A DNA stretch of 35,749 nt, taken from the NCBI GenBank assembly GCA_009839485.1, contig VXPQ01000064.1, positions 1 through 35,749 of the forward strand, given 5' to 3'. Under the pieces are notes generated by a model. It did not search any database and was not told where the DNA came from. It worked only from the letters and a program-made list of their open reading frames with translations. The DNA comes from Bacteroidetes bacterium SB0662_bin_6 (GTDB lineage: Bacteria > Bacteroidota > Rhodothermia > Rhodothermales > VXPQ01). Made by a program: the position numbers and the translations under genes. This document shows positions 8,389 through 35,749 of the stretch, one piece after another (position 1 is the stretch's first letter; each line of letters begins with the position of its first letter).

Positions 8389-9693
8389 TTACAGGATAGC
8401 CGCTTCCTCAATACGCTTTTGGATCGCGTCTCGTTGCAGGGCTTCGACACGCGCTTCTTCCGCGTAGTCCGGCCAGTGCGAAACGACCTCGTGAACCTCG
8501 GCGCAAATAGCTTCCGCACGCCCCCGTTTCATAGAGGCGGCCCGGGCGCATGCGCGAAAATCTTCCATAGTGAAGGCTTCCTGTTTTCCGTTCAGCGTCA
8601 TCTGGTGGATAGATGTCCACTTGCCCTCCGGATTGCAGGCATAGGTCAGGTCGAATGCGGGCGCCAGCGCCCATGCTCCGGCCCTGTCCATGAGAAAAGC
8701 GATGTTTTTAACGTGATCGTCCTGGTTGCGGGCAAAGACATTGAAAGCCATGCGACGGAACTGTTCCTCTATCGCGCTCATCGAAAGCCCCAGTTCCCAA
8801 ATAACCATAAGCGCCTGTTCATAAGAATAGGCGCCTGCCTCGTTGAAATCGAAGTGCGCCATCGCCCCCAACGACTGCATATGCAGCTTTGCCCCATCGG
8901 GCAACCGATCGAAGCGCCGGGTCATGAAATGCCGCCTCCCGCCTTCTTCGAACAAGCGGCAATCGGCCATTTCGATATCGGCGTCCCGCGCCATAAGGTA
9001 ATAGGCATATTCGATGGCGCCGTATCCTTCGGGGGCCGCCCACGTTCCGTCGTGTTCCCCGCCCACGCCGTCGAACTTGATCAACCAGTGTTCGAACCCG
9101 GCGCCAACGTCTGCCTGCCCCGAGCGAACCTCTTTTGTTTGAGGGTTCCAGGCGATCACCGCCTTTGCGCGGGCGCCTCCTGCGGATGTGCCCACCCGCA
9201 GGATTTCCTGAAGCGGCGCTGCGTCGTCTTGCGCGTCATAGGACAAACGCAATGCTTCGCGTTGTTGCAGGATTTCGGAAGCCAACGCCACCAGCCGATC
9301 TACCTGAAGACGCTGTCCTTGATTCGATCGAGGTCCTGTTGCGGGCACGAATTCCAGGGCGCCCATCCCGCGAGACCCTGTGTAACACAGCCGCTCGACG
9401 GCATTGAGCGAATCCGGCGGTCTCCCCTGTCCCGCCAGCCAGGCATTGATCACAGCATGCCCGAAACGGTCCGGCAGAGAATCCGCCAACATGCCGGGAA
9501 GGCCGTAAAACGATTCGCGGCGCAGCAGAGGAAACCCGTATACCCTTTCGGACAGGGGCATGGTAAGAGGCGCCAGCTGTATGCCGCTTTCCAGAAATGT
9601 CGGGGCAAACTCAAAATCGGCGACCTCTTTACCGTCCTCAAGGGTAACAGCGCCGACCGTGCTTCCCCAAAGTCTGACTTCGGCGTGCGTCAT
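8389..9693 (-). CDS. hipA: HipA-family serine/threonine kinase toxin
   Basis: 434 aa. The N-terminal HipA subdomain contains SFYGLPGMLADSLPDRFG (61-78). The kinase core has the Gly/Ser loop GTSAGGARAKAV (168-179), whose Ser170 matches the autophosphorylated serine of E. coli HipA. Further landmarks are WLIKFDG (Lys206), the catalytic loop RNQDDHVKN (322-330; D326, N330) and the metal-binding FDLTYA (D348). All key residues are intact, so it is probably an active kinase. E. coli HipA phosphorylates glutamyl-tRNA synthetase and causes growth arrest; other HipA relatives hit other targets, so the target here is open. The start overlaps the hipB stop by 4 bp (ATGA), indicating coupled translation. 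Typical HipA length is about 400-440. Confidence 0.93.
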   Translation of the reverse strand: MTHAEVRLWGSTVGAVTLEDGKEVADFEFAPTFLESGIQLAPLTMPLSERVYGFPLLRRESFYGLPGMLADSLPDRFGHAVINAWLAGQGRPPDSLNAVERLCYTGSRGMGALEFVPATGPRSNQGQRLQVDRLVALASEILQQREALRLSYDAQDDAAPLQEILRVGTSAGGARAKAVIAWNPQTKEVRSGQADVGAGFEHWLIKFDGVGGEHDGTWAAPEGYGAIEYAYYLMARDADIEMADCRLFEEGGRRHFMTRRFDRLPDGAKLHMQSLGAMAHFDFNEAGAYSYEQALMVIWELGLSMSAIEEQFRRMAFNVFARNQDDHVKNIAFLMDRAGAWALAPAFDLTYACNPEGKWTSIHQMTLNGKQEAFTMEDFRACARAASMKRGRAEAICAEVHEVVSHWPDYAEEARVEALQRDAIQKRIEEAAIL

Positions 9694-10046
9694 GTTTCAT
9701 CTCCCCATCGCCACGCTGAGGGTTGTTCTCTCACGGTCCCTGTTTTGGGAGACCGCGCCCGTTGACGCTGCTTACCTTGCATGTTCAGGATGTCCATAGG
9801 CCGTGGACCGGGTTTCGGTACCAGCACATCGAGATTCGGAACGAGATGCAATGCCCTGAGCACACGGATAATACTGGTGAATTGCACCGGTTCGCCCGCT
9901 TCGATGCGCTCCAGCGTACGTTTGGATATTCCCGCTTCGAAAGCAAGATCGGCCTGGGTAACACCCATATCGAGACGCTGGCGGGCAATACGCTTGCCGA
10001 GTTCGGCAAGCAGGTATTCGTCGGTATTCAGATTTTGAAAAGACAT
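9690..10046 (-). CDS. hipB: HipB-type antitoxin, XRE-family DNA-binding protein
   Basis: 118 aa. A helix-turn-helix spans about 12-70: LGKRIARQRLDMGVTQADLA followed by FEAGISKRTLERIEAGE, then LHLVPNLDVLVP. The C-terminal tail (GKQRQRARSPKTG) is long, basic and probably disordered. As in E. coli, it should bind HipA and repress its own promoter. It is first in the leftward run hipB-hipA-BatA. The start ATG at 10046 has no Shine-Dalgarno. The upstream DNA (10047-10206) is very AT-rich and contains palindromic repeats that are good operator candidates. Confidence 0.92.
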   Translation of the reverse strand: MSFQNLNTDEYLLAELGKRIARQRLDMGVTQADLAFEAGISKRTLERIEAGEPVQFTSIIRVLRALHLVPNLDVLVPKPGPRPMDILNMQGKQRQRARSPKTGTVREQPSAWRWGDET

Positions 10047-10195: not shown

Positions 10196-10308
10196 CATAA
10201 CCCCTTTTGCAAGCCAACCCGCCCGATGGTTTCTCATACCGGGAACACGATAGCCGTCCGACGTTAGAGTATCTCCTGCAAACCGGACGCGGCGTGTCGC
10301 CCCGCACA

Positions 10309-11127
10309 ATGACCTTCTCCCTGGAATTCTTTCCGCCGCGTACAGCGCTTGCCGAGGAACGGCTCGAAGCCAATCTTCCCACGCTGCTTGCGCTGGAGCC
10401 GCGCTTCATAAGCGTGTCCTGCGGAGCGGCGGGGTCGTCGCAGGAGGGCACGTTCGAACTGGTGCAGGCATTGCGCACCAACCACCGCGTGACGTGCTGC
10501 CCCCACATGTCAAGTGTCGGCCGCACCCGCACCCGGATCGCCCGCGTGGTGCGTGCGTATGCCGAGCTTGGCGTCCGGCGCTGCATTGCCCTGCGAGGCG
10601 ACAAGCCGGACGGCTATGTGCCGAGTGAAGCCCACTACACCTCGTCCTGGGAGTTGATCGCGGGACTCAGGGATGTCGTCCCGGAGTTTGAAATAGGCGT
10701 CGGGTGCTATCCGGAAGGGCATCCCGAAGACCGTAGTCCCGACGACCGGTTCACGATCCTGGAACGCAAGGTGGAGGCCGGCGCCCATTTCGCGATTTCG
10801 CAGCTTTTCTTCGAGACGGACGCCTTCCTGACGTTTCGGGACGGGTGCGCCCGGCGTGGGATCGCAGCGCCCGTCTGGCCGGGTATCATGCCAATCCATA
10901 ACCCGACCCGGGTATTCGGGTTTGCCGACAAATGCGGAGCGGTGGTGCCGGATGCGCTGCGCGCCCGATTCGAGGGAAAAAGCGACGAAGAAACGTTTGA
11001 ACTCGCCCGGGATGTCGTCTGCAAACAGGCCTTGCGGCTAAAAGCGGAAGGGGTGGAGCACATGCACCTGTATACGCTGAACCGGCACCGGCTGGCGGCA
11101 GAAATTGTCCGGGCGCTGAAAACATGA
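10309..11127 (+). CDS. metF: 5,10-methylenetetrahydrofolate reductase
   Basis: 272 aa from the ATG at 10309. It converts 5,10-methylene-THF to 5-methyl-THF with FAD and NAD(P)H, supplying the methyl group to MetH. Diagnostic motifs: [11 protein letters not shown] at the very start (active-site Glu), [12 protein letters not shown], the FAD-binding [34 protein letters not shown] and WPGIMPIHN. The frame is open upstream to a TTG at 10207 and a GTG at 10294, but the extra residues do not resemble MetF and the ATG gives an EFFPP placement normal for many MetF proteins. No Shine-Dalgarno supports any of the starts. The last codons overlap metH by 4 bp (ATGA), so the two are one operon. The promoter must lie in or near the hip repeat region. 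Confidence 0.93.
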
Positions 11128-14100
11128 ACAGCAGAACGAAGCGCCTCGACTGGCTGCACCAGACAATGAGCAGGCGCATTGTCCTGCTGGATGGGGCATA
11201 CGGCACGATGGCGCAGTCCCTTGGACTGGACGAAGACGCCTTTCGCGGACAGCGATTCAGGGACTCCGAACGGGATCTCAGGGGCAACATCGATGTCCTG
11301 TGCCTGACACAGCCGCATGCAATCGTCGGGATCCACGAGCAATATCTGGCCGCCGGGGCAGACATCCTGACCACGAACAGTTTCACGGCGAACGGGCCGT
11401 CCCAGGCCGACTACGGCCTGGAACATCTCGTGTTCGAAATGAACCGGAGCGCGGCGGCGCTTGCACGCGAGGCAGCCGACCGGTGGACCCGCCGAACGGG
11501 TGAATTCAGGCTGGTGGCGGGCAGCGTGGGCCCCACCAACCGCACGCTGTCCATGTCGCCCAAGGTCGAAGACCCCGGCTACCGGGCAACGACGTTCGAA
11601 GAACTGAGCAGCACGTACTACGAGGCGGCAAACGGCCTGTACCAGGGCGGCGCCGATCTGGTGCTGCTGGAAACGATTTTCGATACGCTGAACGCGAAAG
11701 CGGCTCTGTACGCGATCGGCCGGCTCGAGCGGGATACGGGCGCAACGATTCCGGTAATCGTATCGGGCACCGTCACCGACCGGTCGGGACGCACGCTGTC
11801 AGGGCAAACGCTGGAGGCGTTTTTCATTTCCATTCGGCATGCCCGCCCACTGGCAGTGGGCCTCAACTGTGCGTTCGGGGCCTGCGATCTCGACCGGCAC
11901 ATCCGGGATTTATCCCATATCGCCGACACGCCGATCAGCCTGCACCCCAACGCCGGCTTGCCGAACGAGTTCGGCGCATACGACGAGACCCCCGAAACCA
12001 CGGCAGCCATTCTGAAAGGGATCGCCGAAGACCGCGTGGTGAACATACTCGGCGGCTGCTGCGGCATGACCCCGGCGCATATCGAAGCGATTCGGGATGC
12101 GGTTGCCTCGGCAGCGCCGCGCAAGACGCCGGAGGCGAAGCGGCGCATGCGGTTATCGGGCCTCGAACCACTTACCAGGACGGAGACCACCGGCCTGCTG
12201 CACATCGGCGAGCGCACCAACGTGGCCGGTTCAAGGGTTTTCCTGCGATGCATCCGGAACGAAGATTTCCCCGGCGCGCTGAAAATCGCCGCCGAACAGG
12301 TGACAGGCGGCGCCAACATCATCGATGTCAACATGGACGAGGGCATGCTCGACAGTAAGGCGGTCATGCAACGGTTCCTGAACCTGTTGGCCTCCGAACC
12401 CGGGATCAGCCGCGTACCGGTCATGGTGGATTCCTCGCGTTTCGAGGTGCTCAAAGCCGGTCTTGAATGCCTGCAAGGGAAAGGCGTCGCCAACTCGATC
12501 AGCCTCAAGGAAGGCGAGGACGTTTTCCTGCATCAGGCCCGGACGATCCGCGATCTGGGGCATGCGCTGGTGGTCATGGCGTTTGACGAAGAAGGACAGG
12601 CGACGACCATCGAGCGCCGGGTGGAAATATGCGCGCGCAGTTACGCACTGCTTGTGGAGCAGCTCGGCTTCGCACCCGAAGACATTGTTTTCGATCCCAA
12701 TATTCTGGCCATAGCCACCGGGATCGAAGAGCACAACGAATACGCCCGCTCCTTCATCGATTCCATCCCGCGCATCAAGGCCGCCTGCCCGGGCGCACTG
12801 GTGAGCGGCGGCGTAAGCAACGTGTCCTTCGCCTTTCGGGGCAATGGCCCGGTGCGCCGCGCCATGCACGCCGTCTTCCTGTATCACGCGACCCGCGCCG
12901 GACTGGATATGGCGATCCTGAACGCAGGCTCCCTGATCGCATACGACGACATCCCGGACGCGCTGCGCGAGGCCGTCGAGGATGCCATCCTGAACCGGCG
13001 GTCCGACGCTACCGAACGATTGCTGGAGATAGCGCAAGACGTGGGCAACACGCCCGAAACGAGCCACGCCGTGGTGGATGCCTGGCGCGAGTTGCCTGTC
13101 GAAGCCCGGCTGGAGCATGCGCTGGTGCATGGCCTCGATGAACATATTCTGAGCGACGTCGAGGAAGCAAGGCTGGCGGCGGAGCGCCCGCTGCATGTGA
13201 TCGAAGGACCCCTGATGAACGGCATGAACCGGGTGGGGGACCTGTTCGGCGCCGGAAAGATGTTTCTCCCGCAGGTCGTCAAATCGGCGCGGGTGATGAA
13301 GCAGGCCGTGGAATATCTCGTGCCGTTCATGCGGGGAGACGAAACCGCTTCGCTCGCGCGCGGACGTGGCAAGGTGGTGATGGCCACGGTCAAGGGCGAT
13401 GTGCACGATATCGGCAAAAACATCGTCAGCGTGGTGCTGCAGTGCAATGGGTTCACGGTCGAGGACCTTGGCGTCATGACGCCTTGCCAGCGCATCCTCG
13501 ACACGGCCCGCGAAAAACATGCGGACATGATCGGCCTGTCCGGGCTGATTACGCCGTCGCTCGACGAAATGGTGCATGTCGCCGGGGAAATGCAGAAGCA
13601 GGGGTTCGGTATGCCGCTGCTGATCGGCGGCGCAACCACCTCGCCGATTCATACATCGGTCAAGATCGATCCGGCGTATGCCGGACCCGTCGTGTACGTG
13701 AAGGATGCTTCCCGCGCCGTGGGGGTGATGAAGGAACTGGTCGGGGACCGGCGCAGCGACTATGTCAGATCGGTGGATCTCGAGCATGTCGCCCGGCGAA
13801 AACGACATGCCGGGCCAAAGCGCCGGCTGCCGAGCCTGACCCTCGATGCTGCCCGGGCAAACCGGTTCGATGGAGACTGGGATGCCTACCCCCCGCCAAG
13901 GCCGGGCCGACCCGGTGTGCATACCATCGACCCGCAACCGCTTGAAGAACTCGTCGAGTATATCGACTGGCGGCCGTTTTTCTCGGCCTGGGAAATGCAG
14001 GGGCTGTTCCCCGCCATCCTCGAGGATCCGGTAAAAGGCGAGGCTGCGCGCGAACTCTATGACGCCGGGCGCACCATGCTGGATCGCATCGTGAAAGAGG

Positions 14101-14816
14101 AGTGGCTCCTCACACGCGGCGTGTGCGGCCTCTTTCCGGCGGCAGCGACGGAGGACGACGATATCATTGTTTTTACCGACGAGTCACGGCGCACCGAACG
14201 GATGCGCCTCTCGACGCTCCGCCAGCAGCGGGCATTGCCCGAAGGCAGACCGCATCGCGCCTTGTCGGACTTTGTCGCGCCTGTCGGGCAGAGCGTGGAC
14301 GACTGGATCGGGGCATTCGCCGTCACCGCAGGATTGGGGGCATCGGAACGGACCGCCGCCTTCAAGCAGGCAGGCGACGATTACAGCGCCATCATGCTGC
14401 AGGCGCTGGCGGATCGGCTGGCCGAAGCCTTCGCCGAGTACCTGCACCTTCGGGTGCGCCGCGAATTATGGGGTTATGCGGCCGGGGAATCGCTGGACAA
14501 TGCCGATCTGATTGCAGAATCGTACCGGGGCATTCGCCCCGCTCCGGGCTACCCGGCCTGCCCGGAACACAGCGAAAAACAGAAACTCTGGGAGTTGCTG
14601 GACATCCGGGAACGCATCGGTGTGGAACTCACCGAATCCTGGGCGATGCTGCCCGGCGCTTCCGTCAGCGGGTGGTACTTTTCGCACCCGAAGGCGCGCT
14701 ACTTCGACGTGGGGTTGATCGGCAAAGATCAGGTCGAGGACTATGCCCGGCGGAAGGGGCTGCCGGTTGCAGAGGCCGAACGGCTGCTCCGGCCCAACCT
14801 CGGGTACGAGGTCTGA
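11124..14816 (+). CDS. metH: Cobalamin-dependent methionine synthase
   Basis: 1230 aa, full length, methylating homocysteine with 5-methyl-THF through a cobalamin carrier. There are four modules. The homocysteine domain (about 1-330) has zinc ligands C249 ([11 protein letters not shown]) and C312/C313 (GGCCGMTP). The pterin domain (about 345-620) has [11 protein letters not shown] and [13 protein letters not shown]. The cobalamin cap and binding domain (about 650-890) has DVHDIGKN (759-766), where H761 is the predicted cobalt ligand. The C-terminal reactivation domain (about 900-1230) has [12 protein letters not shown] (from residue 1138), which binds S-adenosylmethionine. All key residues are present. 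The reactivation domain implies a reductase partner elsewhere. No B12 or SAM riboswitch was seen upstream of metF. Confidence 0.97.
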
Positions 14817-14886: not shown

Positions 14887-16200
14887 TCACTTGACCAGCA
14901 TCATAACTTGGCCCATGATCCTGCCCTGCGCCTGCAACCGGTAGACGTATGCGCCGCTGGGCAGATCGCCCGCATCGAAGCGCGTTGTATGATGGCCTGC
15001 AGGCTTCGATTCGTCGACAAGCACCGCCACTTCGTGACCGAGCAGGTCGTAGACCGCAAGGCGCACGTTGCCGGCCCACGGCAACGCATACCGTATGGTC
15101 GTCTCCGGATTGAACGGGTTCGGATAGTTCTGTCCGAGGGAGACCTCTTCGGGTATCTCCGAATTTTCGGTGGACACCGAACTGTAATGGACCACGGGGA
15201 GATTGGTCCGGGTAGCACTGGTAACCCGTTCTCCAGACACCGAGCGTATGAAGAAGATGTGCTTCTCGCCCGATGTTAGCGCGTGAATGTCAATGTCTAT
15301 GCTCGTGGCATTCCTGTCGATGCGCGTCCACGGGATAACCACATCGCCGAGATCAAAAGCGCTGCTCGTATACCATCCCTCCTGAACCTTGTACTCCAAC
15401 GAGTCTACCTTGTCCGGATGAGGAGGCGCACTCCACTGCACATTAACAACATCACCCTGCACACGGGTATCGAAATTGTTAGGATAATTATATGTCAGAA
15501 AATCCGAGGTGGGAGTAACGGGATTAGTGGGAGCAGTCGGAGTAGCGGTTGAAGGCGGGATAGGCCCATTGATCCGGATTCTCATGAAGTTGAGCCCGAT
15601 CTCCCAGCCTCGGCCTCTCTCCTTGTACAAACTGTTCTCAATGCTCCACCCCGATGTCCCGCCAGTGTCTTCATTGCCCGAGGCTGTATAATGGATTGTA
15701 TCAAAGCTATCGTTGTCAACATCCACCACTACCAGATAGGTTGTTTCCGCATCGAGATCGATTCCGCTGGTTGTGAATCTATTGGCACCCACTACCAGCG
15801 TTTCCGGTAACGACAGGGAGCCCACAGGTATGCTGGGTCTGCCGCCCTGGCCGCTGGTCCAGATGCCAACACTGTACGTTGGGTTTGAGAATGCTTTGGA
15901 AAAATAAATGTCGACACTCCCCAGCGTATAGCCATCGCTGTCGCTGCCTGTCGTAAATGCCTGGGCATGATCGTAATAAAAAGGAATACCGCTGTCGCCG
16001 GCAGGCTGTCCGGCATTGCTCACGAACATCTGGGCCTGTGCAAGGCCGCCCGGGCCTGACGCAGAACACAGGGGCAAGGCGGCGAGCGTGAGCAGCCCTG
16101 TCATAGCGCGGAAGCTCCCGGCGGCTGTGGAGGGGATAAGGAATTTTCTGATTATTAGTTTCTTTCTTGTGATGATTACGAATTTTTTAACAGAAATCAT
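14887..16200 (-). CDS. Secreted protein with type IX secretion C-terminal sorting domain
   Basis: 437 aa from the ATG at 16200; a second ATG at 16104 would give 405 aa. A hydrophobic segment TGLLTLAALPLCSASG and an AQA cleavage region form the signal peptide; the extra upstream residues are Lys/Ile-rich and AT-rich, so the shorter start is a real alternative. About residues 55-210 form a beta-rich domain resembling choice-of-anchor R modules (AQAFTTGSDSDGYTLGSVDI, TTYLVVVDVDN). A Pro/Thr linker (PPSTATPTAPTNPVTPTS) leads to a fibronectin-III-like region. The last ~85 residues are a type A sorting domain: NYPNPFNPETTIRYALP, VYDLLGHEVAVLVDES, LPSGAYVYRLQA. Known cargo of this kind is exported by the type IX system and attached to or released from the surface. 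The binding target is unknown. Confidence 0.85.
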   Translation of the reverse strand: MISVKKFVIITRKKLIIRKFLIPSTAAGSFRAMTGLLTLAALPLCSASGPGGLAQAQMFVSNAGQPAGDSGIPFYYDHAQAFTTGSDSDGYTLGSVDIYFSKAFSNPTYSVGIWTSGQGGRPSIPVGSLSLPETLVVGANRFTTSGIDLDAETTYLVVVDVDNDSFDTIHYTASGNEDTGGTSGWSIENSLYKERGRGWEIGLNFMRIRINGPIPPSTATPTAPTNPVTPTSDFLTYNYPNNFDTRVQGDVVNVQWSAPPHPDKVDSLEYKVQEGWYTSSAFDLGDVVIPWTRIDRNATSIDIDIHALTSGEKHIFFIRSVSGERVTSATRTNLPVVHYSSVSTENSEIPEEVSLGQNYPNPFNPETTIRYALPWAGNVRLAVYDLLGHEVAVLVDESKPAGHHTTRFDAGDLPSGAYVYRLQAQGRIMGQVMMLVK

Positions 16201-21936: not shown

Positions 21937-24462
21937 CTACGACGCACCCGTATCGACCACAGCGGGAGTACGGCGGTCTTCCAGCCATTGCAATGCCGCA
22001 GGCAGAAAGAGAATCGCTGCAAGCAGCGTTGCCCCGATGCCCACCACGGCCAACTCGCCGATCGAGCGCAAACCCGGGTGAAAACTCAGCAGCAATCCTG
22101 AAAAACCGATCATGGTCGTGAAGGACCCCATGGCGATATGCTCGCCCGTATAACGGAGCACGCGCCGGATGGAACCGGGTCCTTCCTCCCGGTAGCGATG
22201 GACCAGATGCACGCCCGCATCGTTGCCGATACCCAGAATGGCGGGAAGTACGATCATGTTATAGAAATTGAGCTGGAGGCCGATGATTTCTATGACAAGA
22301 ATCATCCATAACACCCCCACCACGAGCGGCGCCGTAGCCAGCGCGACCCACCGCGCTGCACGGAAGTTGATCCACATGAGCAGGATCACCATAATCAGGG
22401 CGCCTGCCATCATCCAGGGCGCATCGCTGCGCATCAGCCGCAGCATATCCGCGGCGACAATGGATGGAGAACCCGCGTAGTATGTGCTCCCGTCTTCCGT
22501 AACGATCTTTCCCACATCGTCGGCAAATTTCATTGAGGCCCGTCCGTCGGAAAGTCCCACCGAAGGGTATATCACGACAAATCCCCCCAATTCGCCGGTT
22601 TTGGACACGAACCGGTTGCGAATACTCTCGGGAAGTTGCTCGATCGCAAGCGGCTGGACCGTCCCCGCTGCACGCTCGACGCGCGCAAGCCCTTCGTCCG
22701 TGTCAGCCTGCAGGAACGGGTCGGCAAGCAGCGCACGGATTTGGGCAATGCGAGCCAGCTTGTGCTGCTGTTCCTCATCGGCCATGGGAAACCTTTCCTG
22801 AAGCGTTTCCGCCCGATCGATTGTGGGCGACAGCGTATCCGACCGCGCATGCCGTTCGATAGCCTCCTCGACGGCGGGCGCTTCGGACGGATCGTCCACA
22901 AGTACATAAGCCGGGTTGCGGCCTCTTGATGGATATACTTCGCCGATGAGATTTCTTTTGGCGTCGTAGGCTTCATACACGGGATCGAGCGCGCCGAAAT
23001 CGTACTGAAAACCCACCCTCGGAAGAAACGCGAGCGCGGCGATAACCAGCCCTATGCTTCCCAGCACCAGCCCCCGGGAACCGGGAATTCTCCCGTATCC
23101 CTGCACGGGCGCCTGCACCCCGGCGCCCGCCTCGAAATTGAGCAGGCGATAGCGCTCGAAAAGGACCAGCAGCGCCGGCATTACGACCGTCATGGCCCCC
23201 ACGGCAAAAAGAATGCCCGTACCCGCAATGAAACCGAATTCGCTGAACCCGCGGAAATCCGCGCCGGTCAACACATACAGCGCGGCGGCCGTGGTAAAAG
23301 CACCCACTGCGATAGCCTTTCCCGTACTGGTGAACGTGCTTTCCGCCGCATCGGCTACCGTACGGCCCAGGCTGCGCTCTTCCGTATAGCGGGCATAAAA
23401 ATGTATGCCGTAGTCGATCCCGAGACCGAACAGCACAAGCCCAAGCGTCGACGTCATCATATTGAGCATCCCGAAGGCAAACCAGGCCACGCCCAGTGTC
23501 CAGGAAAGGCTCATAAGGAGGGGTATCCCGATCAGGCAGGCAAGCGCCGGAATGCGCACCAACTGCGCAACCAGTACACGCCGGGAAAATCGATGACCTG
23601 CGCGGGCCGTATATCCCTTGTAGAAAAAATACCCCACCACCAGCAGCAAGACGGCCGTCACGCCCGCTGCAAAGGAATTGAGCACATCGTCGGAAATCGC
23701 CCGCACTTCCACGAGTTGGCGCAGAAGCCGTCCTGCCGGCACTACCTGCATTTCCGGATGATAGGCGGTCGGGGTCAATTCCGCAATCAGCGTATCCAGG
23801 TCGTCATACAGCGTCTCGATGAATCCTATGTCGGTCTGCGATCCGCTCGGATAGAACCGGAGCGCCATGATCGTACTGTCCTCGTTGACCGGATAGCGCT
23901 TTCCGACAATATGATCGTACACTTCCTCGAGGTCCCGCTCCGGATCGTATGCCGCCTCGTCCTCGGATTCGTCCTCTTCGTCGTCCAGATCGAAGAAAAA
24001 CGGATTGGCCTCCAGTCTCGCATCGCGAATTTCGTCGCGGAGGTACGATTCCAGACTGTCCAGTTCCGCATACGTCGCGAAATACAGGGCGTTTTGCTCC
24101 AGAAACGCCGTGTCCTTCTCGAAATCGACCCGATGCAGATACGGTTCGGCCTGCGGCCCCGGCGCAAGGGCCAGCGCACGCGGGATCAACTGCTCGGCGA
24201 ACGCCTTGTTGGCCTCAAACGACGGGCTCACGATCGCCACGTCCACGGTTGCCTCGCTTCCCACGGTTTCGCGCAGCGCTTCCAGCGCCTGCACACTCGG
24301 ATAATCACGCGGAACAAGGTTGGAAAAATCCGTGTCGATGCGAAGTTGCCGGGCGAACCAGAAGCCCGCTACGGAAACGACCAGAGCAAGAAGCACCACC
24401 GCCCAGGCCTGCCGAACCACCAACCGGATGAAAACGCGCAACGCGTGGGGGAAACGACTCAT
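21937..24462 (-). CDS. MMPL/RND-superfamily membrane transporter (HpnN-like)
   Basis: 841 aa with the RND plan: one N-terminal helix (about 18-36), a large periplasmic domain, a block of helices with FGLGIDYGIHFYARYTEE, another helix and periplasmic domain, and a final block with ILGIGNDAGVHLVHRYREE. The paired G-x-D-x-G-x-H motifs are those of MMPL/HpnN transporters, which use the proton gradient to move lipids such as hopanoids or glycolipids out of the inner membrane. The first periplasmic domain has an acidic run (FFFDLDDEEDESEDEAAYD, about 155-173). Substrate is not decidable; it sits among glycosyltransferases. Its start overlaps the DUF3047 stop by 4 bp, so the two are cotranslated. 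Confidence 0.85.
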   Translation of the reverse strand: MSRFPHALRVFIRLVVRQAWAVVLLALVVSVAGFWFARQLRIDTDFSNLVPRDYPSVQALEALRETVGSEATVDVAIVSPSFEANKAFAEQLIPRALALAPGPQAEPYLHRVDFEKDTAFLEQNALYFATYAELDSLESYLRDEIRDARLEANPFFFDLDDEEDESEDEAAYDPERDLEEVYDHIVGKRYPVNEDSTIMALRFYPSGSQTDIGFIETLYDDLDTLIAELTPTAYHPEMQVVPAGRLLRQLVEVRAISDDVLNSFAAGVTAVLLLVVGYFFYKGYTARAGHRFSRRVLVAQLVRIPALACLIGIPLLMSLSWTLGVAWFAFGMLNMMTSTLGLVLFGLGIDYGIHFYARYTEERSLGRTVADAAESTFTSTGKAIAVGAFTTAAALYVLTGADFRGFSEFGFIAGTGILFAVGAMTVVMPALLVLFERYRLLNFEAGAGVQAPVQGYGRIPGSRGLVLGSIGLVIAALAFLPRVGFQYDFGALDPVYEAYDAKRNLIGEVYPSRGRNPAYVLVDDPSEAPAVEEAIERHARSDTLSPTIDRAETLQERFPMADEEQQHKLARIAQIRALLADPFLQADTDEGLARVERAAGTVQPLAIEQLPESIRNRFVSKTGELGGFVVIYPSVGLSDGRASMKFADDVGKIVTEDGSTYYAGSPSIVAADMLRLMRSDAPWMMAGALIMVILLMWINFRAARWVALATAPLVVGVLWMILVIEIIGLQLNFYNMIVLPAILGIGNDAGVHLVHRYREEGPGSIRRVLRYTGEHIAMGSFTTMIGFSGLLLSFHPGLRSIGELAVVGIGATLLAAILFLPAALQWLEDRRTPAVVDTGAS

Positions 24463-25163
24463 GGGAGGTTCGTGAGCATAATGTTGTCGAAATCAACCTC
24501 CGCCACGGAGTCCGTATTGTCCGAATCGCTCCATAGCGTGATCGCCGTCGGGGCGTTCGGCGGTGCTGTGCCGAATATATTCCGGTAATCCTTCACCACA
24601 TTGCGCGTGACCTGCACCCATTCGCCCGTTTCCTCAAGCCCGCTGGAAACCACGATGATCTTCACGTTGCCCGTCGAAACCATAGTTTCCCGGGGCAACC
24701 CGGTGCTGTACACGTACTTTATGCTGAGCGGACGCCCGAGCCAGTCGGTTTTCGAAAACGATACATAGACGGCTGCGCCGGAGTCGTTGACCCGATCCTC
24801 GCGGGCGCCCTCGGGCAAACGGTGGGCGCGCCACGCCCATCGCAGGTACGGCAACTCCGGCAGTTCCCAGTGGAAGGCCTCGGCCGGCAACGAGACGCGC
24901 CGTGCCGTACCCGCCGTATAGGCGCGGAGAAAACGATTGCCGTCTTCCCGCATCACAGAGAACCTTCCCGCGTCGTTCATAAACCGGTCCGGCGCTTCAA
25001 AGCGGCGTTTCGAGCGGGAAAAGAAGCGCCATGCGGCAGGCACGCCGCCCTCAACCCCCGCTTCGAAGTTCTCCAGTATGACGGTCGTGTCGGGGGGCGC
25101 TGTGCATGACGACGGCTCCCCAAAGACCAGCAACAGACCAACTATGGGAAAAAGCGTACTCAT
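24459..25163 (-). CDS. DUF3047 protein, exported
   Basis: 234 aa. The N-terminus MSTLFPIVGLLLVFGEPSSC is a short signal peptide with a Cys at residue 20 that could be a lipid-attachment site, though the residue before it in the lipobox is not canonical. The rest matches DUF3047: VILENFEAG, GVPAAWRFFSRSKRRF, LPYLRWAWRAHRLPEGARED (a very typical segment), DSGAAVYVSFSKTDWLG, IKYVYSTGLP, and the C-terminal WSDSDNTDSVAEVDFDNIML. No activity is known for the family. The 4-bp overlap with the MMPL transporter suggests a periplasmic partner of that pump, which is inference. Confidence 0.8.
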   Translation of the reverse strand: MSTLFPIVGLLLVFGEPSSCTAPPDTTVILENFEAGVEGGVPAAWRFFSRSKRRFEAPDRFMNDAGRFSVMREDGNRFLRAYTAGTARRVSLPAEAFHWELPELPYLRWAWRAHRLPEGAREDRVNDSGAAVYVSFSKTDWLGRPLSIKYVYSTGLPRETMVSTGNVKIIVVSSGLEETGEWVQVTRNVVKDYRNIFGTAPPNAPTAITLWSDSDNTDSVAEVDFDNIMLTNLP

Positions 25164-31725: not shown

Positions 31726-32523
31726 CTAATTTGCGACCGAAGCGGTCTCCATCTCTTCGAGGGACGGGAGCAGCGAGTGCTTCACCCATCCGAACTCGGG
31801 GTTTATCTCAAGCGCCCGCTCGAGGGCCGTCCGGGCCTCCTCCAGATTGCCCCGGTCCATAAAGACAATCCCGAGCCGCGCATACGTATCCTCGTGACCC
31901 CATGACGGCAACACAGGGTCTTCCACCACTTCTTCCTCGAAGAGGCGAGCCGCTCTGTACAGCCCCTCGAGTGCGCGGTCCTTGTTCCCTCCCACAATGC
32001 GCGGGAGATTATAGGCAGTGATAGCCCTCAATAACACAACCCTCGGATTATCGGGTGCGAGTTCCCGGGCCCTGGACATAGCCCTGTTGAACTTGCGTCC
32101 CAGGGTTACGGCTTGCAAGGGGCGCACCGTCATCTTCTGGCCGTATGCGGCGGAAAGCATTAACCAGCCTTCGGCAAAAGTTTCGTCCCGATCGGTCGCG
32201 GCCTCAAGATGGTCGATGGCGTAGTTGACGTATTCCAGGATTTCGCGATTGCGGTTCGAGCCATCCAGTGCATGCAGAATGTTGGCCAATTCGCTTGCCG
32301 CCGACGCAGCATAGTAATGGGCGAATATGGCCAGACTGTCGTCATCGATGGCCTGCTCGAAAAGCGCACGGACCTTCAGGAGTTTGTCCTGATCGTCATG
32401 ATTGGCTCCATCTGCCAGCATCTCCTTGCCTTCGAGCAATAACTGCCTGGTTGACTGTGCCTGAACGGGTACGCACCATGCAACAAGCGCCGCAAATACA
32501 ATAATGGTGATCGAATTTCGCAT
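31726..32523 (-). CDS. Exported TPR-repeat protein
   Basis: 265 aa. MRNSITIIVFAALVAWCVPV followed by QAQS is a signal peptide with likely cleavage after AQA, so the protein is periplasmic. The mature part is all-helical, with tetratricopeptide-like segments: AIFAHYYAASAASELANIL, ETFAEGWLMLSAAYGQKM, HEDTYARLGIVFMDRGNLEE followed by ARTALERALEINPEFGW. Only the last two look like canonical TPR units. TPR domains hold protein partners; no partner is evident. It is the first gene of a leftward series with the membrane/XRE pair, but ~210 bp separate them. Function unknown. Confidence 0.72.
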   Translation of the reverse strand: MRNSITIIVFAALVAWCVPVQAQSTRQLLLEGKEMLADGANHDDQDKLLKVRALFEQAIDDDSLAIFAHYYAASAASELANILHALDGSNRNREILEYVNYAIDHLEAATDRDETFAEGWLMLSAAYGQKMTVRPLQAVTLGRKFNRAMSRARELAPDNPRVVLLRAITAYNLPRIVGGNKDRALEGLYRAARLFEEEVVEDPVLPSWGHEDTYARLGIVFMDRGNLEEARTALERALEINPEFGWVKHSLLPSLEEMETASVAN

Positions 32524-32586
32524 GCTCTTTTTGCGCCATGAAAAGGTGATACGGCTTAATATGGGAATTATATAGTTCCCTAACCA

Positions 32587-32751
32587 ATGCCTAAAAAGCC
32601 AAAAATCCCGAAGACCGTCAAGGAAGCGGAACGTACGATTTCGGCGAATCCGCGATATGGCGGGCTAACCATTGCCGAGGCAACACGCCGAATCCTATTG
32701 GGTAAAAAGGTGGAATATCCCCCCGAACCCCAGAATCGGAGATACACTTAA
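32587..32751 (+). CDS. Small basic ORF upstream of the sterol methyltransferase homologue
   Basis: 54 aa, ATG at 32587, TAA at 32749-32751, ending 25 bp before the methyltransferase start on the same strand. It reads MPKKPKIPKTVKEAERTISA then NPRYGGLTIAEATRRILLGK and a Pro/Arg-rich tail. A Lys-rich start and a helical middle make it look protein-like, but I know no homologue, and an open frame of this length can arise by chance. No clear Shine-Dalgarno. If real it could be cotranscribed with the methyltransferase. Confidence 0.35.
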   Translation: MPKKPKIPKTVKEAERTISANPRYGGLTIAEATRRILLGKKVEYPPEPQNRRYT

Positions 32752-32776
32752 GGTTATAATTTCCGGAGAACCCGCT

Positions 32777-33829
32777 ATGAGGCCCGCCAGACAACTCCGC
32801 GAACTATCCAATGCGCTGAAGGCCGCTTTCGACGGGTCGATCGTCGCCCGCCGCGTGCAGGACTTCGAAGGATGGACCGACAGGGCATCCCAAGAGGATT
32901 CCGAAGCGGGCTACGACCACACGCGGACCGTCAAGGAGTACTACGACCTTTGTAGCGAGTTCATGGTCCTGGGTTGGGGAGAATCCCTGCACTTCGCGCC
33001 GCTGTTGCCTGACGAGAGCCTGGAGGACTCCAAGATCCGGCACCAGCGACTCATGATCTCCAAGCTCCAACTGCGCCCGGGCATGACGGTAGTTGACATC
33101 GGCTGCGGGATCGGCGGTCCGATGCGCCGCGTCGCCCGCGAGGCCGGCGTCAGGGTTGTCGGGATCAACAGCAGTGAAGTCCAGTGCAACAACGCCAACC
33201 GGCTGAACGCCGCTGCGGGGCTTGATGACATGACCGACTGCCTGGTGTCCAGCTTCATGGACATGAACACTATCGCGGACAAGACCTTCGACCGTGGCTA
33301 CGCGATCGAATCGACCTGCCATGCGGCCGACAAGGTCGGCGCGTTCGCCGAAATCTACCGGGTCCTGAAACCCGGAGCTCTCCTCTGGGGCCAGGAAATG
33401 TGCATGACCGACATGTTCGATCCCGGTGACGATCGGCATCACGCCATCAAGCGGGAGCTCATGCACGGCATCGCGCTCAAGGAAATCGCGACGTTTGGGG
33501 AGGTGAATAGGGCGCTCGAAACCGTGGGATTCGAAGTCATGGAGGGTGCGGACCTCGCCGGCGACCAGCACGGTCCGGTCACGCCGTGGTATCAACCTAT
33601 GGAGACCCGGCGCGGACTGCTCGGCAACACTTTCCGCCGGATTCCGATAGGCCGCAAGGCGGTGAGGTGGGGATCCAGGATGGCGGAATTTCTCGGTGTG
33701 TTCCCGAAGGGCTCGGCGGAGGTCGTTGGACTATTGGATCGGACCGCAAACGCCTATGTTGCCGGGGGCAGCGCCGGGATCTTCACGCCGCTCTACTGTT
33801 TCGTGGCGCGCCGGCCTCTTTCGGGTTAG
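32777..33829 (+). CDS. Sterol 24-C-methyltransferase-like protein (ERG6/SMT1 type)
   Basis: 350 aa from the ATG at 32777, chosen because GGAG lies eight bases upstream and the upstream residues are unlike the family. SMTs add a methyl from S-adenosylmethionine to C-24 of a sterol side chain. Order of motifs as in plant and fungal SMT: YDHTRTVKEYYDL, region I LGWGESLHFA (65-74), SAM motif VVDIGCGIGGP (105-115), VVGINSSEVQCNNA, region III YAIESTCHA (175-183), EIYRVLKPGALLWGQEMCMTD and WYQP (271-274). The last 70 residues (FRRIPIGRKAVRW, FPKGSAEVVGLLDRTANAYV, AGGSAGIFTPLYCFVARRP) match the C-terminal sterol-methyltransferase domain, which generic methyltransferases lack. Two aromatic residues of yeast region I (YEYGWG) are replaced (MVLGWG), so the substrate may differ. 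Tocopherol- or mycolate-type methyltransferases fit less well. Confidence 0.85.
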   Translation: MRPARQLRELSNALKAAFDGSIVARRVQDFEGWTDRASQEDSEAGYDHTRTVKEYYDLCSEFMVLGWGESLHFAPLLPDESLEDSKIRHQRLMISKLQLRPGMTVVDIGCGIGGPMRRVAREAGVRVVGINSSEVQCNNANRLNAAAGLDDMTDCLVSSFMDMNTIADKTFDRGYAIESTCHAADKVGAFAEIYRVLKPGALLWGQEMCMTDMFDPGDDRHHAIKRELMHGIALKEIATFGEVNRALETVGFEVMEGADLAGDQHGPVTPWYQPMETRRGLLGNTFRRIPIGRKAVRWGSRMAEFLGVFPKGSAEVVGLLDRTANAYVAGGSAGIFTPLYCFVARRPLSG

Positions 33830-33872: not shown

Positions 33873-35749
33873 TCAAACGGAACCTTCGGCGGCCAGTTCT
33901 CGCCGGGCCGACGTGAGGCGCAGATGGATCGAGGAAAGCGCGGGCACCAGAAACATGATGAGCACCGTGGTGAAGAGGATGCCGCAGCCGATCGAGGCGG
34001 AGAAGGGAACAAAGAACTGCGCCTGAATCGCGTCCTCGAGAATCAGGGGGGTGAAGCCCAGGAAGGTCGTCAGCGAAGTCAGCATGATCGGGCGAAAACG
34101 TCCCTTCGCGCCCTCGATGATCGCGGTTCGCACCGGGATTCCGTCCCGAAGCTTCTGGTCGGTGAAATCGATCATCACCAGGGAGTCGTTGACGACCACG
34201 CCGGCGAGCCCGAAGATCCCGACGAAGGACTCCGCGCTGACGGCAACCCCCAGCATCCAGTGACCCAGGATCACGCCGATGAACCCGAACGGGATGATGG
34301 CCATGACGATGAACGGCTTGGTATAGGAGCGCAGGGGAATGGCCAGCAGCGCGAAGATCAGGAGCAGCGCGATCACGAATCCGCGATAGAGACCCCCCAG
34401 CGAGTCGAGTTGCTGCTGCTGTTCCCCTCCGAAGGTGTACATCAGTTCCGGGTTCTCGGCGATGAGCCCCGCCAGGATGGTGTTCTCCAGAATGTCATTG
34501 GCGGTCGCGGCGGAAACTACACTCGGATCGACATCAGCGGTAACCGTGACAATGCGCCGGCCGTCCTGGCGCCGGATGGACGGCGGCGACATCCCCGAAC
34601 TCAGCGCGGCCACCCGGCTGACCGGCACGTCGGCGCCGGTTGGTGTGCGGAACCGGTAACTCTCGACGTCGGTAATTGCGTTCCGCTGCTCCTCGGGTAG
34701 CCGCACGTAAACCCGCACCTCGTCACGTCCCCGCTGCACCCGCACGGCCTCGACGCCAAAGAAGGCCGCTCGCGTCTGCCAGGCAAGATCATCAAGCGTG
34801 AGGCCGAGGGTGCGCGCTTCGGGAAGCAGTCCCACCTGAACTTCCGGGATACCGGGGGTGTGGTCCGAGCGTATGTCGAAGACGCCTCCGACTCCGCCGA
34901 GGTCGGCGACGGTGGAATCTGCGATCGCGATCAGGCGTTCCGGGTCTGGATGGGAGAGCGCAGCCTCGACCGGGTTGCCCAGGGTGTAGATCTCGCTGAT
35001 GAAGGTGACCGCGCGCGCCTGCGGCAGGTCCCCCACCTCCTCGCGCCACGCCTGCACGACGTCTCCCGAAGTGATGCGCCGCTCCTGCGCGCTCAGGAGC
35101 TTGAACTCGATGGTGGCGACATTGGCTTCCGGGTTCAGGGTGGGCGAGGGGTTGAGACCTCCGGTTTCGAGCCGCGACCGCTGACCGACGACGACCGTAA
35201 CGCCGGACAACAACGGAGGCGCGTCGGCGGGCCGGCTTTCGGAAAGCCGCTCCACGGCCCGGCGACCGGCCGCTTCCAGATGTTGCGCCACTGCGTACGT
35301 CTGCGGCGCGGTCGTTCCGTCCGGCATCTCGAGGGTGGCGATCGCGAAGTCGCCTTCGACCTTGGTTGCGAAGGTGGTCGGAACGATGCCGGCCGGAAGC
35401 AGGGAAACGCTCAGGACGAGCAGCGCCACGGCCCCCGAAACCGTCACCCCGGGGCAGTCCGTCGCGAACTGGATTCCGCGATCCAGCGGCCCCTGGACAA
35501 AGCGGTGCAACCCGGAATCGACCCGAGTCTGGATCCGGGCGACGAATCGTTCAATGCCCGTACCGGGCGCCCAATCCGGGCCGTGCAGATGATGGGATAG
35601 ATGGTTGGGCAGCACGAGCAGCGATTCGACCAGCGAAAAGAGCAGCGTGGCGATGGCGACGATCGGCAGCGCCTTCCACACCTCTCCGAACCCCGCGGGT
35701 ATGAAGAGCAGCGGAAGGAACGCCACGATCGTCGTCAGCACCGCGAAGA
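33873..35749 (-). CDS. AcrB-type RND efflux pump, C-terminal part (cut by window edge)
   Basis: About 625 residues visible; the start is beyond the right edge. The visible chain begins at FAVLTTIVAFLPLLFIPAG, which in AcrB-type pumps lies after the first ~400 residues. It continues through the helices ALPIVAIATLLFSLVESLL, the second periplasmic porter/docking region (from about FATKVEGDFAIATLEMPDG to YTFGGEQQQQL), and the last helix block with IPLRSYTKPFIVMAIIPFGF, GLAGVVVNDSLVMIDFTDQ and RPIMLTSLTTFLGFTPLILE. Pumps of this class exchange protons for drugs, lipids or metals with an adaptor and TolC-like channel. No heavy-metal signature is visible, favouring HAE1-type. It converges on the sterol methyltransferase homologue with a 43-bp gap. 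Confidence 0.9.
   Translation of the reverse strand, partial: FAVLTTIVAFLPLLFIPAGFGEVWKALPIVAIATLLFSLVESLLVLPNHLSHHLHGPDWAPGTGIERFVARIQTRVDSGLHRFVQGPLDRGIQFATDCPGVTVSGAVALLVLSVSLLPAGIVPTTFATKVEGDFAIATLEMPDGTTAPQTYAVAQHLEAAGRRAVERLSESRPADAPPLLSGVTVVVGQRSRLETGGLNPSPTLNPEANVATIEFKLLSAQERRITSGDVVQAWREEVGDLPQARAVTFISEIYTLGNPVEAALSHPDPERLIAIADSTVADLGGVGGVFDIRSDHTPGIPEVQVGLLPEARTLGLTLDDLAWQTRAAFFGVEAVRVQRGRDEVRVYVRLPEEQRNAITDVESYRFRTPTGADVPVSRVAALSSGMSPPSIRRQDGRRIVTVTADVDPSVVSAATANDILENTILAGLIAENPELMYTFGGEQQQQLDSLGGLYRGFVIALLLIFALLAIPLRSYTKPFIVMAIIPFGFIGVILGHWMLGVAVSAESFVGIFGLAGVVVNDSLVMIDFTDQKLRDGIPVRTAIIEGAKGRFRPIMLTSLTTFLGFTPLILEDAIQAQFFVPFSASIGCGILFTTVLIMFLVPALSSIHLRLTSARRELAAEGSV

Follow-up and report, generated by a model that had tools for sequence, protein, structure and literature searches.

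A horizontally acquired sister of the sterol 24-C-methyltransferases, altered in Region I and paired with an RND pump, as a candidate tailoring enzyme for imported sponge sterols

We describe here a bacterial member of the sterol methyltransferase (SMT) family, encoded near the end of a 35,749-nucleotide stretch of DNA (the window), which forms contig C64 of a 2.92 Mb genome that is 96% complete and 0.1% contaminated. The protein belongs to a subfamily, here called SMT-star, that is a sister clade of the canonical sterol 24-C-methyltransferases (24-SMTs) and lacks the C-24 signature of Region I. Its gene lies beside that of an RND pump. We consider it probable that SMT-star is a SAM-dependent C-methyltransferase which tailors sterols imported from a sponge, acting not on the delta-24 side chain but at another position or on another substrate, and that the two genes form a mobile cassette.

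The SMT-star gene occupies positions 32777 to 33829 of the forward strand and encodes 350 amino acids from an ATG at 32777, the start shared by its aligned relatives, with a Shine-Dalgarno sequence (GGAGA, 32765 to 32769, forward strand) seven bases upstream. The protein contains the motifs GWGESLHF, YAIESTCHA, WYQP and IFTPLYCFVARRP; reading frame, coordinates and motifs are all as given in a preliminary description of this DNA. That description had also recognised a full-length SMT family member in a bacterium and, indeed, the protein matches the Pfam domain Sterol_MT_C (PF08498) over its full length with a score of 54.8 bits (cut-off 21.7), in addition to generic methyltransferase domains. 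It is collinear over nearly its whole length with Arabidopsis SMT1 (39% identity over 339 amino acids) and yeast Erg6 (34% over 331), both reference sequences having been entered by hand. An AF2 model (pTM 0.80, weak at residues 67-72 and 260-291) matches the class I SAM fold, and the motif VVDIGCGIGGP indicates that SAM should be bound in the usual manner. Kinship with small-molecule methyltransferases of the tocopherol or phosphoethanolamine types, the alternative raised at that stage, or of the sarcosine type was not seen; no NCBIfam family matched above its curated cut-off and all matches fell far under it, for example 65 of 550 bits for the sarcosine/dimethylglycine methyltransferase.

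Where Erg6 has Y81-E82-Y83-G-W-G in Region I, the window protein has M63-V64-L65-G-W-G, and two types of Region I were found among its relatives, the canonical Y/F-E-F/Y-G-W-G and the SMT-star M-V-x-G-W-G. All 82 SMT-star sequences share the replacements Y81 to M, F89 to L, Y66 to H and W225 to M, and most of them have E82 to V (89%), D177 to S (98%) and Y223 to Q (98%), whereas E82 and D177 are invariant in 12 canonical SMTs. Retained in SMT-star are W85 and the conserved polar residues H90, D125, D189, E195 and D276, the latter five at 98-100%. The 82 sequences have a median mutual identity of 70%. In an unrooted IQ-TREE tree of 45 sequences, two of them eukaryotic and entered by hand, from whose set three long-branched Dadabacteria sequences labelled canonical, probably not SMTs, had been removed, SMT-star was split from the canonical bacterial and eukaryotic SMTs with 100/100 support and by a branch of ~1.3 changes per column. 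The window protein, which the preliminary description had labelled a sterol 24-C-methyltransferase, therefore falls outside the 24-SMT clade and is not an ordinary 24-SMT. The same description had noticed the change of Y81 to M and of Y83 to L, which our residue comparison bears out, and had read it as a hint of a changed substrate, which is likely. The change of E82 to V, which it did not mention, weighs more, and Y81 to M proves to be fixed subfamily-wide.

C-24 methylation has been tied to the Region I aromatics, Y81EYGWG86, and to an essential Region I glutamate (PMC6997595, PMC10968281). Since both are lost in SMT-star, the C-24 label is, from the sequence, doubtful, although not disproved. 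As the side chains lost are those that stabilise the cation, we would expect methylation of another sterol carbon or a change of chemistry, for instance to the methylation of a 3-oxo sterol through its enolate. The retained W85, H90, D125 and E195 and the C-terminal domain count against such an altered position, as does the finding of Brown et al. that eight of ten sponge-symbiont SMTs tested were ordinary 24-SMTs (PMC10070321); two symbiont SMTs did not methylate desmosterol. Together with D189, the retained features would suit a true 24-SMT that works on imported delta-24 sterols and in which the changes in Region I shift just product or substrate preference. Sponge-symbiont SMTs, and an SMT from a Chlamydiae MAG devoid of other sterol genes, indeed methylated desmosterol in vitro (PMC10070321). 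However, we think a true 24-SMT unlikely, as Y81 and E82 are lost subfamily-wide while the Region I aromatics and glutamate are described as required, and as several genomes carry SMT-star and a canonical SMT within about 8 kb of each other, suggesting different jobs.

One scan of 84,980 species genomes returned 438 relatives, of which the best 80 were retained. All of these 80 come from MAGs, mostly with sponge-project codes, and by label they fall into eight phyla: Chloroflexota (31), Acidobacteriota (12), Gemmatimonadota (12), Nitrospirota (6), Dadabacteria (placed under Thermodesulfobacteriota), Actinomycetota and Pseudomonadota (five each) and Nitrospinota (2), with the phylum missing for 2; some of these labels are wrong. 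For example, loci L022, L027 and L034 lie on contigs ~94% identical over 17 kb, in genomes with RpoB 98-99% identical, under the labels Gammaproteobacteria and Gemmatimonadetes, so that at least one public label must be incorrect. Sixteen of the best 80 relatives carry jk18x codes, which denote MAGs from Ircinia sponges (PMC9531527). Judged by name, the codes RHO, COS, IRC, APA and SB066x appear to match the sponge species of a further study (PMC8163846) and an I. ramosa project, and the relatives of its gene suggest that the window's genome is likewise of sponge origin. Within its own phylum (394 genomes), any SMT was found in only 2 of 170 genera; four genomes carry SMT-star (over 600 bits) and five carry the canonical type (252-316 bits). 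A canonical SMT homologue at 14851-15708 of contig C121 in genome G056 has three in-frame stops and is probably a pseudogene. If the substrate is a sterol, most carriers would need it from outside, because the long SQE-OSC fusion was present in only 7 of the 41 SMT-star-bearing genomes tested, with one further partial match. Bacterial SMTs at large are less rare than first implied: functional enzymes from sponge symbionts were shown in 2023 (PMC10070321), and in Ircinia symbiont MAGs SMTs are enriched and steroid-synthesis clusters have been transferred horizontally (PMC9531527).

We then called and clustered the ORFs around the best 80 of the 438 loci, counting on the 53 loci flanked by 6 kb or more on each side. 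Four neighbours recur: a GPP34-cytochrome P450 fusion of about 675 amino acids (43 of 53 loci), a KshA_C Rieske oxygenase (41), an amine-oxidase-type FAD oxidoreductase (29) and an AcrB-type RND or MMPL pump (44), some of the pumps having Patched/sterol-sensing matches. At least one of the fusion, Rieske and FAD enzymes is present at 49 of the 53 loci and all three at 27, whereas chance would place a one-copy gene in such a stretch in well under 1% of genomes. At some Nitrospira loci, SMT-star is accompanied by an SQE-OSC fusion, CYP51, ERG24-like genes and a canonical SMT. The fusion of GPP34 (Golgi phosphoprotein 3) with a P450 is itself found at L073 (9079-11103, reverse strand) and at about 60 other loci in several phyla.

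A special case of sterol tailoring by SMT-star would be an analogue of the nematode 4-SMT, methylating the enolate of a 3-oxo sterol in ring A as part of a Rieske and P450 route like that of DAF-36, DAF-9 and STRM-1. The nematode enzyme, too, lacks the Region I aromatics and acts on 3-oxo sterols (PMC6997595), and a KshA_C-type Rieske enzyme and a P450 adjoin SMT-star. However, the nematode 4-SMT shares just 21% identity with Erg6 and is likened to SMT-star by description, and a 3-hydroxysteroid dehydrogenase does not recur in the SMT-star cluster, the HSD family going with OSC clusters instead; this special case therefore seems improbable to us. Rather doubtful is a substrate that is a non-sterol polycyclic or terpenoid lipid, or a natural product. 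The solved folds closest to the SMT-star model are the natural-product methyltransferases TleD, RebM, AtmM and MitM, and the P450 and FAD enzymes belong to broad families and could act on other terpenoids, but Sterol_MT_C is intact, in Nitrospira-type genomes SMT-star adjoins SQE-OSC, CYP51 and ERG24-like genes, and hopanoids are unlikely in a genome without a squalene cyclase.

The favoured reading, tailoring of imported sterols, agrees with the gene content of the window's own genome. Neither a squalene or oxidosqualene cyclase (SQHop_cyclase_C) nor a squalene epoxidase was found in this 96%-complete genome. The preliminary description had left two options, that the host makes sterols or that it modifies imported ones; as far as the completeness of the genome allows, the first is rejected and the second is favoured because both genes are missing. 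A hopanoid as endogenous substrate was likewise rejected, the genome having no squalene cyclase. Two congeners (G001 and G002, loci L090 and L091) carry a cluster of SQE-OSC, CYP51, ERG24 and canonical SMT and other congeners do not, and by this gene content sterol synthesis is predicted to be accessory within one genus. The Rieske, FAD oxidoreductase and GPP34-P450 genes are present in the window's genome as one run on contig C32, with the fusion at about 52.1-54.1 kb; that they lie on another contig than SMT-star speaks against the favoured reading.

The host phylum is probably Bacteroidota, and the class might be Rhodothermia. The host RpoB matches PDB entries 9n9p and 8dkc best, at about 1290-1330 bits with all others at 972 or less, and 8dkc is an RNA polymerase from the Bacteroidota species Porphyromonas gingivalis; moreover, the protein at 14887-16200 of the window carries a Por_Secre_tail type IX secretion signal. 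The best SMT matches had suggested an acidobacterium as host, which was dropped since RpoB is just 52-53% identical to those genomes, no nearer than to other phyla. Elsewhere in the window, an HpnN-like MMPL transporter (21937-25163, reverse strand) adjoins a DUF3047 protein, although squalene cyclase is missing from the genome. As a member of the MMPL pumps of SMT-star clusters it was rejected, for a direct search matched congener G001 only (86%), and it belongs to the host background. A HipA-type kinase gene (HipA_C, Couple_hipA) with a small upstream gene (8389-10046, reverse strand) is likely a HipBA toxin-antitoxin pair. Methylenetetrahydrofolate reductase followed by B12-dependent methionine synthase (10207-14816, forward strand) lies ~18 kb from SMT-star, and the nearness of this methyl-supply pair is probably a coincidence.

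Host synteny in the window extends to about 32550-32584 and then ends. The last host gene before the break encodes a TPR protein (31726-32523, reverse strand; 88-94% identical in congeners G003-G005), and the junction of about 180 bases that follows (32585-32764) is not convincingly matched by any congener or donor-like locus; it holds a 54-codon ORF (32587-32751, forward strand) for which no relatives were found in 12 genomes searched by DNA. Similarity to Acidobacteriota cassettes starts at the Shine-Dalgarno sequence, and from there to the contig end (32765-35749) the DNA is ~87-92% identical to Acidobacteriota loci. This segment consists of SMT-star and, convergent to it, an AcrB-type RND pump gene (33873-35749, reverse strand) truncated by the contig end, with about 624 amino acids present. 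The SMT-star protein is 84-88% identical to its nearest five Acidobacteriota homologues, and the pump is 88-94% identical to Acidobacteriota pumps adjoining SMT-star, against 67% to the own pump of congener G004, although RpoB of the host and of these Acidobacteriota is only 52-53% identical. SMT-star proteins of the same-order genomes G019, G029 and G050 are just 64-65% identical to that of the window, and a single clade of all four was rejected (p-AU 3e-91).

A native RND pump is present in congeners G001-G004. In G003 and G004 (single-contig) a close pump homologue lies beside the Rieske gene, the order in G004 being pump, Rieske, FAD enzyme and GPP34-P450, and contig C32 aligns collinearly with G004 (87-92% nucleotide identity) but lacks the pump stretch, some 3.4 kb long, from between the Rieske gene and a pyrB gene identified by eye. 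The closest homologue of the congener pump in the window's genome is the partial pump at 33873-35749 (67%), and the only other one found is 49% identical. The simplest account appears to be that the cassette was gained from an Acidobacteriota-like donor and that the resident pump was lost. Because the foreign pump replaced one adjoining the Rieske gene, the pump is tied to the Rieske-P450 module. A 4.25-kb SMT-star-RND block elsewhere is 92-93% identical between unrelated flanks in genomes labelled Gammaproteobacteria and Gemmatimonadota; cross-phylum transfer was dropped for this pair, with RpoB 98-99% identical in the set and 72% to others, and the block was probably transferred between lineages of one phylum. 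No phage-carried SMT was found in IMG/VR, and PHROGs gave just a weak generic methyltransferase match. The main technical rival is a chimeric contig, in which DNA from an Acidobacteriota genome in the same sample makes up the final 3 kb after a join near 32.6 kb. It would fit the stop of host synteny at 32584, the cassette reaching the contig end and the junction unmatched on either side, but is very unlikely given that the native pump is cleanly missing from C32 of an otherwise collinear genome, as replacement predicts, that no Acidobacteriota locus compared exceeds about 92% identity to the cassette, and that other lineages carry the block between unrelated flanks.

Taken as a route, the tailoring that we favour would begin with exogenous sterols taken up from the sponge host. 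SMT-star would methylate a different carbon or substrate from the delta-24 side chain targeted by ordinary 24-SMTs, a KshA/DAF-36-type Rieske oxygenase, the FAD oxidoreductase and the GPP34-P450 fusion would act with it, and the RND or MMPL pump would move substrate or product, the order of the steps being presumed. By analogy with UfaD, which acts after UfaM (PMC7380195), the FAD enzyme may desaturate beside the new methyl group. SMT-star and RND would have arrived here as a mobile two-gene cassette, the foreign pump substituting for the native one. More tentatively, SMT-star might have a new regiochemistry, at ring-A C-4 as in nematodes or at C-26 as in aplysterol, which would be a first among bacterial SMTs, and might belong with the Rieske, FAD, P450 and pump genes to a shared, horizontally spread symbiont pathway to a methylated steroid product. 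To our knowledge, the C-26 methylating enzyme of aplysterol-type sterols is still missing.

The occurrence of SMT-star relatives beside steroid-oxidising enzymes in many phyla suggests that sponge-dwelling bacteria alter the sterols of their animal host. Methylated sterols serve as molecular fossils for eukaryotes and sponges, and unusual sterols of sponges could have a hidden origin in SMT-star, which surveys would mis-annotate as SMT1 or ERG6. The conserved module is, in addition, a testable proposal for how unrelated bacteria in one animal share the handling of host sterols. No earlier description of a GPP34-P450 fusion, a C-26 SMT or a module of this type was found in the open-access literature, and on that literature the SMT-star subfamily, its module and the cassette transfer appear to be undescribed.

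Among known systems, Erg6, plant SMT1 and the bacterial and symbiont 24-SMTs (PMC10070321) share with SMT-star the class I SAM fold, the GWG.SxHF frame, H90, D125, D189, E195 and Sterol_MT_C. SMT-star differs from them in being at most 44% identical, in the replacement of Y81, E82, F89, Y66, D177, Y223 and W225, and in occurring mostly in genomes without sterol synthesis. UfaM and UfaD of furan fatty acid synthesis (PMC7380195) likewise pair a SAM methyltransferase with an FAD-binding desaturase that acts on the methylated lipid, but their substrate is a fatty acyl chain and they serve here as a parallel only. The nematode STRM-1 (PMC6997595) has, as compared by description, a Region I without the 24-SMT aromatics, and works in a sterol importer with a Rieske sterol enzyme and a P450; it is far more distant from Erg6 (21%), and the parallel of importer, Rieske enzyme, P450 and remodelled SMT is suggestive. 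The steroid clusters of Ircinia symbionts (ERG24-CYP51-ERG7, often with SMT1; PMC9531527) resemble the SMT-star module in their spread over sponge symbionts of many phyla, in horizontal transfer and in an SMT often placed at the edge. Those clusters, however, belong to de novo sterol makers, whereas the SMT-star module has no cyclase, is linked to such clusters in only some genomes (for example Nitrospira), and is partnered instead by the GPP34-P450 fusion, a KshA-type Rieske oxygenase, an FAD oxidoreductase and RND or MMPL pumps.
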